This document shows positions 10,286 through 15,560 of a stretch of DNA of 22,067 nt, one piece after another. Under the pieces are notes generated by a model, which worked only from the letters and a program-made list of their open reading frames with translations, was not told the origin of the DNA and did not search any database. The stretch spans positions 1-22,067 of the IMG/VR virus record IMGVR_UViG_3300025869_000115; one strand, given 5' to 3'. The translations under genes and the position numbers were made by a program. Every line of letters begins with the position of its first letter. Position 1 is the first letter of the stretch. Source of the stretch: a virus.

Positions 10286-10314
10286 GATTATAACATATTT
10301 TAAAACAAAAGTCA
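10286..10314 (-). promoter_or_regulatory. Strong sigma70-type promoter
   Basis: Minus strand TTGACT (10314-10309), 17 bases, TATAAT (10291-10286), with TGT before the -10 (extended). Eleven of twelve consensus bases match. Predicted start is about 10279, giving an 86-base AU-rich leader before the 81-aa gene. A GTGACA box lies just upstream at 10321-10326. Confidence 0.8.
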
Positions 10315-10328
10315 AATCATGTGACATT

Positions 10329-11217: not shown

Positions 11218-11570
11218 ATCATCCTCCTTTTTAAAATTGGTGCTAGTTTTTTTGGCATGGACTACTAGCAAACCACCTACCTTTATATATTTTATAGTAG
11301 CTATTAGTATGTTACGCTACTTGTCCAAGATGCTTTCCTTCAAGGACGTGATTACTCTACCTAGCAATCCGTAAGCCTAGTGATACAGTAAGGGTAGCTT
11401 ACCCAAACCAACTCTAGGATTTAATTTGTAGTTAGTGCATGGTGGTTTAGTTCTCATTTACTTTCATCCTTAACACGCACTTAAGACATATAAGACCAGT
11501 GGGATTTTACAAAGGCTCACTCCTAACTACAAAACATATCCTATCATATCAATGTGTCAAACGTGTGACA
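11218..11570 (-). ncRNA. Candidate structured RNA or long regulatory 5' leader
   Basis: No gene fits in this 353-base stretch. Read leftward it holds ordered inverted repeats: an 11-bp perfect stem (TTTGTAGTTAG at 11533-11523 with CTAACTACAAA at 11435-11425) enclosing TGGT/ACCA and CTTAA/TTAAG stems; GGGTA-AGC-TACCC at 11404-11392; AGTAGC/GCTACT at 11321-11296; and GCTAGT/ACTAGC at 11269-11242, which ends 11 bases before the Shine-Dalgarno of the 82-aa gene. A promoter-like sequence lies at its 5' end. I do not recognise any known RNA family (checked by eye for tRNA, tmRNA, hammerhead and group I features). Confidence 0.5.
11538..11560 (-). promoter_or_regulatory. Probable promoter at the head of the structured leader
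   Basis: TTGACA (minus strand, 11560-11555) is followed after 16 bases by TATGTT beginning at 11538; a second possible -10, TATGAT with TGA in front, is at 11548-11543. The second would start the RNA at about 11536, just before the 11-bp stem. Which is used cannot be decided. Confidence 0.45.
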
Positions 11571-11587
11571 TTATTGTGACAATTCTG
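11564..11587. repeat. Phased pair of GTGACA boxes
   Basis: GTGACA at 11565-11570 and 11576-11581, exactly 11 bases apart. The 24-base block matches the block at 14421-14444 at 21 of 24 positions. It spans the end of the 61-aa gene and sits next to the -35 at 11555-11560. Confidence 0.7.
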
Positions 11588-13993: not shown

Positions 13994-14022
13994 ACTATGG
14001 CATACTTTGCCTAGCTTGTCAA
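13994..14022 (-). promoter_or_regulatory. Early promoter with TGC-CATAGT extended -10 (copy 1 of 3)
   Basis: Minus strand TTGACA (14022-14017), 17 bases ending in AAAGTATGC, CATAGT (13999-13994). It overlaps the end of the 83-aa gene and drives the 63-aa gene behind an ~85-base leader. It closely matches the promoter exactly 300 bases away at 14294. Confidence 0.7.
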
Positions 14023-14270
14023 TACCCTTGGCGAATTAATATTTCCCTTGGGTTTTGCCCTATCCGGTTTTGGTGGTATAGATTGCTCCATTCAACCTTT
14101 AATCCGGAACTGTCTTTATTACTGTTTGCATGAGCTGACAGAATCCTAGTTTTTCCATATCGCTTAGCTTTACGCTTGGCATTCTTGGATACCTTAGGGC
14201 TATTCTTGTTTACACGTATGTATACGTTTTCACCTGTCAGTCCATCAATAGCCTGTTTATATTCAGTCAT
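14019..14270 (-). CDS. Small basic protein, first leftward early gene
   Basis: 83 aa, basic (KNSPKVSKNAKRKAKRYGKTR) with a C-terminal NLYHQNRIGQNPREILIRQGY. ATG 14270 has TAGGA about 8 bases upstream. It is the first gene left of the control region, directly behind tandem promoters, so likely among the earliest expressed. A DNA- or RNA-binding host-takeover role is possible from charge and position only. Confidence 0.72.
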   Translation of the reverse strand: MTEYKQAIDGLTGENVYIRVNKNSPKVSKNAKRKAKRYGKTRILSAHANSNKDSSGLKVEWSNLYHQNRIGQNPREILIRQGY

Positions 14271-14293: not shown

Positions 14294-14322
14294 ACTATGA
14301 CATACTTTTAAAGCCTTGTCAA
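14294..14322 (-). promoter_or_regulatory. Early promoter with TGT-CATAGT extended -10 (copy 2 of 3)
   Basis: Minus strand TTGACA (14322-14317), 17 bases ending AAAAGTATGT, CATAGT (14299-14294). Predicted start about 14287, 17 bases before ATG 14270. Confidence 0.72.
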
Positions 14323-14372
14323 GTATTAATTTATTTATTTAATATATGTAATCCTTTATTTAATATAGGTGT

Positions 14373-14401
14373 ACTATGACATGATAAAATTGAAAAGTCA
14401 A
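14373..14401 (-). promoter_or_regulatory. Early promoter with TGT-CATAGT extended -10 (copy 3 of 3)
   Basis: Minus strand TTGACT (14401-14396), 17 bases ending ATCATGT, CATAGT (14378-14373). Tandem with the promoter at 14294; no gene starts between them. Confidence 0.68.
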
Positions 14402-14412
14402 GGGTTTAATGT

Positions 14413-14440
14413 AACAAGTTTGTGACATGTTTGTGACAAT
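14413..14440. repeat. Phased pair of GTTTGTGACA boxes
   Basis: GTGACA at 14422-14427 and 14433-14438, 11 bases apart, each preceded by GTTT and the first by ACAAG. Near-copy of the 11564-11587 pair and just upstream of the early promoter at 14373-14401. Confidence 0.72.
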
Positions 14441-14639
14441 TGTGTGAAATAAGGCAATGCTCAGAATGGCGTGTATGGTGTTTTTAGAGAAAATAGGTGG
14501 TGTAGTATTGGTGAAGTGTTCGAAGCGTTAGAGAGCTTTAGAGAGTTGAAATATTAATTATAGTGATAATGTAATATAAATTATAAGCACTGTACAAATA
14601 TACACTATTTTGAAATGCGTTAACTAGATTTGACAAGCG

Positions 14640-14692
14640 TTACAAGTTTGTCACATTTGTCACGTGGCTGTCACATTGTGACAAGTTTGTAA
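14640..14692. repeat. GTCACA/GTGACA box cluster within a large imperfect palindrome
   Basis: Arms 14640-14655 and 14677-14692 match as an inverted repeat at 14 of 16 positions. Four boxes: GTCACA 14650, GTCACG 14659, GTCACA 14670 and GTGACA 14678. The last two form a perfect TGTCACA-T-TGTGACA dyad (14669-14683). ACAAGTTTGT occurs at 14642 and 14681 and also at 14414. Confidence 0.75.
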
Positions 14693-14796
14693 AACTTTAA
14701 AAAATTTCATAAAAACCCTTGACAAATTTGTAAAATTGTGCTAGGACTTTTAAAGGCTTGATCTCCGGCTCAGTTTCGCAGGTTCCGTTTAACAAA

Positions 14797-15099: not shown

Positions 15100-15128
15100 T
15101 TGACAAATTTGCAATATACCTCTATAAT
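15100..15128 (+). promoter_or_regulatory. Perfect-consensus sigma70 promoter for the packaging operon
   Basis: TTGACA (15100-15105), 17 bases, TATAAT (15123-15128): all twelve consensus bases. The expected start is 15134-15136 and the terS ATG is at 15135, so the mRNA should have no leader. Confidence 0.85.
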
Positions 15129-15134
15129 ACCTAC

Positions 15135-15560
15135 ATGGCAACCAATTATTTAGCTGAAACAAAAGACAAGAACCTAACTGAAAAGCAGGAAGCGTTCTTG
15201 GGTCACCTCGTGGATACAGGAGGAGACTTTAAAAAGTCAGCCGAACTTGCAGGTTACTCCGGCAATCACTATCAAGTACTAAAAAGTTTAAAAGAAGAAG
15301 TAGTAGATTTAGCCCAAAACGTACTTGCAAGGGAAGCCCCTACAGCAGCGTTCAAGATTATAGAGGTTTTGAAGTCAGATAGACCTATACCTCAAGCTAA
15401 TTATAAGTTACAAGCTGCACAAACGATACTAGATCGTGTAGGAGTTTCAAAGACTGACAGGATAGATGTTAATCATAATACCGGTGGTGGTATATTTATT
15501 CTCCCAGAGAAAAAAGCAATTGATATTACTGATGGAGATTATGAAGAAGTATCTGAATAA
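15135..15560 (+). CDS. terS: Terminase small subunit
   Basis: 141 aa. N-terminal helix-turn-helix of the small terminase type: NLTEKQEAFLGHLVDTGGDFKKSAELAGYSG (about 13-43), then a helical oligomerisation region with AAFKIIEVLK and NYKLQAAQTILDRVG, and a disordered acidic tail. It recognises phage DNA and hands it to the large subunit. The ATG at 15135 is the only suitable start before the HTH, lacks any Shine-Dalgarno and coincides with the predicted transcript start, so leaderless translation is likely. It heads the rightward operon of packaging and structural genes. Confidence 0.88.
   Translation: MATNYLAETKDKNLTEKQEAFLGHLVDTGGDFKKSAELAGYSGNHYQVLKSLKEEVVDLAQNVLAREAPTAAFKIIEVLKSDRPIPQANYKLQAAQTILDRVGVSKTDRIDVNHNTGGGIFILPEKKAIDITDGDYEEVSE

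Follow-up and report, generated by a model that had tools for sequence, protein, structure and literature searches.

Phased GTGACA boxes at early promoters of an HMO-2011/HTVC115P-like marine phage are probable Pho boxes

The 22,067-base virus record analyzed here in full, hereafter the window (IMGVR_UViG_3300025869_000115), carries short GTGACA boxes repeated at 11-base spacing, which raises the question of what protein reads them. The record is a fragment of an HMO-2011/HTVC115P-like marine phage, as indicated by a homologous terminase and DNA polymerase and by the same divergent genome order. By protein homology, its terminase is closest to that of Pelagibacter phage HTVC115P (63.8% identity), as is its DNA polymerase (52.9% identity), followed by HTVC103P and HTVC104P, with HMO-2011-type phages being more distant; SAR11 was taken as the candidate host group. 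A megablast search of the window against phage records returned no match, and Rfam and tRNA searches of it were empty. A leftward block starting at about 14.27 kb comprises the early and replication genes, while a rightward block starting at 15.13 kb comprises the terminase and structural genes. The boxes lie mainly between these divergent blocks and also at the edge of a second noncoding stretch (11.27-11.58 kb).

To begin with the boxes themselves, the initial annotation had described GTTTGTGACA as occurring twice, 11 bases apart. The repeat and its spacing were confirmed, with coordinates shifted by one base to 14418-14427 and 14429-14438. The proposed 24-base near-copy is also present, since 14421-14444 (TGTGACATGTTTGTGACAATTGTG) and 11564-11587 (TGTGACATTATTGTGACAATTCTG) are identical at 21 of 24 positions, and so is the four-box palindromic cluster reported at 14640-14692, with GTGACA at 14649(-), 14658(-), 14669(-), and 14678(+). 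The palindrome is imperfect, its arms (14635-14655 and 14677-14697) being 81% complementary. Single boxes said to lie near promoters at 10321 and 13918 both exist, but the latter adjoins a start codon and has no clear relation to a promoter. The window contains 20 copies of GTGACA where 11.65 +/- 3.1 would be expected, and none of 100 shuffles reached 20; TGTGACA is present in 14 copies, compared with 3.8 expected. Tandem Repeats Finder (TRF) delineated a period-11 repeat of 3.5 copies at 14410-14447. Each array holds more heptads than previously noticed, i.e., four (two of them degenerate) at site 1 and three (TGTGTCA, TGTGACA, and TGTGACA) at site 2. In a set of 82 loci retrieved solely on the basis of terminase homology, TGTGACA boxes form 10 neighboring pairs, every one of them spaced by exactly 11 bp. 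A variable-spacing scan across viruses, in which the matches listed were mostly multiples of three and minisatellites, was not counted as evidence. The boxes are thus real and nonrandom: two intergenic regions each contain three or four heptads spaced by exactly 11 bp, and a compact inverted cluster is present as well.

Read in the direction in which the early genes are transcribed, the arrays are direct repeats of (T/C/A)TGTCAC-N4, and the heptads are oriented with transcription. Site 1 (14411..14450, minus strand) reads ATTTCAC-N4-TTGTCAC-N4-ATGTCAC-N4-TTGTTAC, and site 2 (11554..11582, minus strand) reads TTGTCAC-N4-ATGTCAC-N4-TTGACAC. The inverted TGTCACA/TGTGACA cluster, recognized from the motif, the palindrome, and the PhoB matrix described below, was designated site 1b (14646..14697, plus strand). 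The PhoB operator consists of two direct repeats of 11 bp (PMC3978041), and the arrays contain such direct repeats of CTGTCA(T/C)-type heptads at 11-bp spacing. To compare them with PhoB operators, we used a matrix seven bases wide built from nine heptads of only the phoA, pstS, and phoB promoters of Escherichia coli (NC_000913). Sites 2, 1, and 1b came out at the top of the whole 22-kb window, with three-heptad scores of 21.6 bits at 11554-11582, 17.1 at 14422-14450, 16.8 at 14411-14439, and 11.1 at 14646-14674. The best two-heptad match, TTGTCACGTGGCTGTCAC at 14657-14674 within site 1b, lies in rightward orientation and scored 20.6 bits, compared to 20.8 for E. coli phoA itself. Both window bests exceed the maxima of 300 shuffles (20.7 for three heptads and 19.1 for two), and spacings other than 11 bp scored lower. 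In addition, the recognition helix of SAR11 PhoB (RTVDVHIRRLRK) is identical to that of E. coli PhoB. Taken as sequence evidence, these features suggest, with a probability that we put at roughly 70%, that the phased boxes are Pho boxes bound by host PhoB or by a very close relative of the OmpR/PhoB family.

If host PhoB reads the arrays, the same motif would be expected before phosphate genes of the candidate host group. SAR11 genomes were reached via a 16S probe and their pstS genes via a family search. The regions upstream of SAR11 pstS indeed contain runs of three to four heptads with 11-bp spacing, for instance, TTGTCACAAAACTGTAACCTAAATGTAAT in genome L502. Across 23 distinct SAR11 pstS promoters, the E. 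coli matrix and a phage-array matrix stood out only at 11 bp, the former on the sense strand; relative to randomly drawn AT-rich windows of SAR11 genomes, 19 and 22 of the 23 promoters, respectively, reached p<0.01. The phage-array matrix includes heptads from relative L006 and from an extra array of L145 that were found with a matrix containing SAR11 heptads and is to that extent circular, a problem that affects neither the E. coli-only nor the window-only matrix. At the same threshold of p<0.01, the window-only matrix picked 13/23 pstS promoters at 11 bp, compared to 0-1/23 at 9, 10, 12, and 13 bp, and none of 11 SAR11 lexA promoters. TGTNACA being close to a palindrome, this matrix is blind to strand (15/23 on the antisense strand). 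SAR11 genomes rarely contain an exact TGTCACA pair (7 in 297 genomes), and the bacteria's own boxes are mostly TGTAAY; this rarity counts against PhoB and at first spoke against it, until the pstS promoters were read.

Matches in other genomes point the same way. Within 398 Pseudomonadota genomes, YTGTCACANNNYTGTCACA occurs six times and its reversed control once. Two of the six occurrences lie at DUF47 (PhoU_div) genes beside a phosphate permease (PHO4 by Pfam in one case), one lies beside a gene of Porin_O_P, a phosphate-selective porin family, one lies at a similar porin-like gene set, and two lie elsewhere. On viral contig L135, a triple TGTCACA array is found 45 bp before a pstS-type gene (L135:1845-2914); by eye, this contig also encodes IscU-like and peroxiredoxin-like proteins. 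These results bear on the alternative that another host response regulator of the OmpR/PhoB family, answering a different signal, binds the arrays. SAR11 genomes do carry genes for at least two other full-length regulators of the OmpR family, and 10- to 11-bp direct repeats are what this family typically binds, yet the specific heptad fits pstS promoters and PhoB sites and the matches elsewhere are mostly at phosphate genes, making this alternative improbable.

The 11-bp TGTGACA repeats are also found beside integrases of SAR11 islands and in other viruses. These occurrences weigh against PhoB, and the motif alone is thus not unique to it. In SAR11 genomes L392/L395 and L393/L396, these repeats immediately precede integrase genes, in one case next to a tRNA-like sequence, and recur about 3 kb away; they are likely the arm-type sites of small integrative elements. 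Could the phage arrays likewise be arm-type sites of an attP? The arrays at 14.41 and 14.65 kb do flank a core of about 190 bp. However, the array-bearing relatives G309 (49.7 kb) and G310 (51 kb) showed no integrase, and neither did other records of the clade (up to 53.8 kb); a crude motif likewise found none at 66 array loci, and a second conserved array lies 3 kb away. Given that the clade records hold no integrase, the window itself being a fragment, we rejected this explanation, which we regard as extremely unlikely.

The reading as Pho boxes for host PhoB also has to fit the promoters. The site 1 array lies directly upstream, at about -47 to -80, of a full leftward early promoter, P1 (14373..14401, minus strand; TTGACT-17-CATAGT with TG), which has a weak -10 and is repeated in relatives L459 and L458. 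A second leftward early promoter, P2 (14294..14322, minus strand; TTGACA-17-CATAGT with TG), precedes the first early gene (14019..14270, minus strand), which encodes a basic protein of 83 amino acids with no assigned function and is kept beside site 1. At site 2, a -10 element (TAGGAT; 11538..11543, minus strand) begins 10 bp past the last heptad, as in E. coli phoA, where 10 bp separate the last heptad from the -10. The same distance was observed in relatives L013 (TTGTCAC-AGTAGTATGA-TATGAT), L145 (CTGTAAC-AAAACTATGA-TACAAT), and L147 (CTGTAAC-ATTCATGAGT-CATAGT). Over 13 clade arrays, several of which are homologous, the mean -10 score was highest at +10 past the last heptad, with +15 a close second. 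Site 1 differs in this spacing, and its geometry, unlike the classic PhoB one, counts against PhoB. A degenerate pair, site 3 (ATGTCAC-N4-TTTGACT; 10310..10327, minus strand), overlaps with its second heptad the -35 of a leftward promoter matching the consensus at 11/12 positions (TTGACT-17-TATAAT with TG; 10287..10315, minus strand); its counterpart in L013, TGTCACATGGTTGTCACACGATTTGACT, is fuller. On the rightward side, a promoter-like TTGACA-17-TAGGAC (14719..14747, plus strand), read by eye and absent from the promoter-scan list, lies just downstream of site 1b. The consensus sigma-70 promoter of the terminase/late operon (TTGACA-17-TATAAT, 12/12; 15100..15128, plus strand) carries no Pho heptads. 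Judged from the sequence, the array positions would fit activators rather than repressors blocking the start site.

Several further features of these promoter regions were observed. The ATG of the terminase small subunit lies only 7 nt past the -10 of the perfect late promoter (15100-15135), a layout also found in L006, and the resulting transcript is probably leaderless. The extended -10 core of three leftward promoters (13994-14022, 14294-14322, and 14373-14401) follows a common pattern, TG(C/T)CATAGTA, possibly a clade-specific early promoter consensus. Between the early promoters, at 14334-14371, lie two AT-rich direct repeats of 16 to 17 bp, TTTATTTAATATA(T/G)GT, 21 bp apart. The leader downstream of site 2 (11415-11543) contains a 21-bp inverted repeat (86%), and GTTTTGTAGTTAGGAGTGAGCC and the bases following it are conserved in relatives, so this leader may be structured; it has no match in Rfam.

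The AT-rich repeat of 21-bp period, together with the tandem boxes themselves and the change in GC skew around 14 kb, could be taken to indicate a replication origin with iterons bound by an initiator, and an origin-binding protein was indeed among the initially annotated candidates. The skew switch coincides with divergent transcription and is not evidence of an origin for that reason. Moreover, there are two array loci, separated by 3-4.5 kb and each linked to a leftward promoter of its own, the arrays are missing from most relatives, and no initiator family was found among the G309 proteins with Pfam or PHROGs. With neither a cognate initiator nor a single locus, an iteron origin was rejected as very unlikely.

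Comparison with related phages showed that array-bearing relatives keep arrays at both positions, i.e., beside the first early gene and 3-4.5 kb along the early block (L093, L097, L120, L123, and L145). Site 2 is conserved in L007, L459, L458, G309, and L123 and has a fuller form in L013, while copy number varies, with three sub-arrays in G309 and two in L005. Heptads are more constant than the N4 spacers, and at site 1b of L459 the boxes of the window are kept while the spacer and flanks have changed. Like SAR11 pstS promoters, the relatives combine different heptads (TGTCAC, TGTAAC, TGTTAC, and TGTCAT). L006, which has no TGTGACA arrays, nonetheless shows a run of four TGTWACA heptads with 11-bp spacing in another part of its early region; compared with shuffles, the p value of this run is about 0.02, which is modest when taken alone. 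Most terminase relatives and the nearest isolated SAR11 phages (HTVC115P, HTVC103P, and HTVC104P) lack arrays, which argues against PhoB, as does the absence of any phosphate gene seen downstream of the arrays.

Many equally close relatives without the site 1 array carry other elements there, namely, a CTGTATANATATACAG-type palindrome in L007 and L064 or CTTTATAAAG palindromes in L006 and L051, so that site 1 content (TGTCACA arrays, CTGTATANATATACAG, or CTTTATAAAG) differs among near-identical phages. The elements of L007 (3180-3210) and L064 (1600-1625) read CTGTATAAATATACAG and ACTGTATATATATACAA, respectively, which we take to match an E. coli-type LexA box; as SAR11 LexA sites they were rejected, since SAR11 lexA promoters carry GAAC-N7-GAAC. 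Repeated CTTTATAAAG palindromes also precede the terminase in L005, L006, L051, and L064, where the window has site 1b.

Variation of this kind is what immunity-type operators display and leads to the alternative that a small early protein of the phage binds the heptads cooperatively and times early and late transcription, the likeness to Pho boxes being convergent or captured. Many small early ORFs without assigned function could encode such a regulator. Nevertheless, no recognizable DNA-binding regulator was found among the early proteins of the window or G309, and Pfam and PHROGs revealed no HTH, RHH, or OmpR-type regulator in the 29 nonstructural proteins of the array-bearing G309. A phage regulator would also leave unexplained why the window-only matrix picks SAR11 pstS promoters at 11 bp and why the arrays also come first with a PhoB matrix derived independently from E. 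coli. We consider this alternative unlikely, although less so than those discussed above.

Under the preferred reading, dimers of host PhoB would bind the tandem (T/C/A)TGTCAC heptads (variants TGTTAC and TGTAAC) on one face of the DNA. At site 2, the last heptad occupies the -35 region 10 bp before the -10, as in E. coli phoA, while at site 1, PhoB~P just upstream of the weak--10 early promoter would recruit or stabilize host RNA polymerase. Phosphate starvation would then increase leftward transcription of early and replication genes, and site 1b could act likewise rightward or couple both directions. PhoB binding, its activating effect, and the phosphate response of the arrays are all predicted from sequence. 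The initial proposal that a regulator binds cooperatively to one side of the DNA near early promoters is supported by the phasing, the promoter geometry, and the conservation of two sites. Its candidate, an early repressor or activator, has to be narrowed, as an activator is favored and the likely binder is a host response regulator and not a phage repressor. More speculatively, and in our estimation rather doubtfully, a phage lineage without detected phosphate genes might gate its whole early lytic program via PhoB, and near-identical phages might swap operator cassettes (Pho arrays, LexA-box-like CTGTATANATATACAG, and CTTTATAAAG palindromes) to respond to different host stresses.

Much of the surface ocean is phosphate limited, and SAR11-type bacteria and their phages dominate there. 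If the arrays do function as Pho boxes, the infection dynamics of pelagiphage-like viruses would depend directly on phosphate supply, which would go beyond the known case of a phage-carried pstS under PhoB. A search rule for such viruses would be the presence of three heptads, 11 bp apart, in front of early genes. Infection by pelagiphage HTVC027P raises SAR11 host pstABCS, phoB, and phoU (PMC12753301), and the open-licence literature searched yielded no description of early promoters with Pho boxes in pelagiphages. Virus-borne Pho boxes are already known from cyanophages and a prophage, but their use at early promoters of the HMO-2011/HTVC115P-like clade appears to be new.

Compared with known systems, the arrays share with the E. 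coli phoA, pstS, and phoB operators the YTGTCAY heptads, the 11-bp spacing, two to four tandem copies, and the same orientation toward the promoter, as well as, at site 2, the 10-bp distance between the last heptad and the -10. They differ in lying at early genes of no assigned function and, for site 1, in front of a complete -35/-10 promoter. In Pelagibacterales, pstS promoters likewise have three to four heptads at 11 bp, in the mixture of TGTAAY, TGTCAY, and TGTTAY shared with phage relatives L006, L145, and L147, although position 5 of the host heptad favors A (TGTA) and that of the window C (TGTC). In cyanophages, host PhoBR controls pstS of P-SSM2 and a set of S-PM2d genes that includes DNA polymerase (PMC10976474). 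These viruses similarly place promoters, including those of replication genes in S-PM2d, under the host phosphate regulator, but they belong to other phage families, use the cyanobacterial Pho box PyTTAAPyPyT/A, and were not shown to have tandem arrays at a divergent early promoter (PMC10976474). Some predicted Pho boxes of S-PM2d did not bind PhoB (PMC10976474); such predictions in phages can thus fail when tested. Finally, host PhoB directly binds the promoter region of Shiga-toxin prophage BP-933W via Pho boxes (PMC3978041). That case concerns the late region of a temperate lambdoid prophage, and ours an early promoter in a marine phage for which no integrase was detected; what they would have in common is phage DNA bound directly by host PhoB via Pho boxes, which in the window is a prediction.
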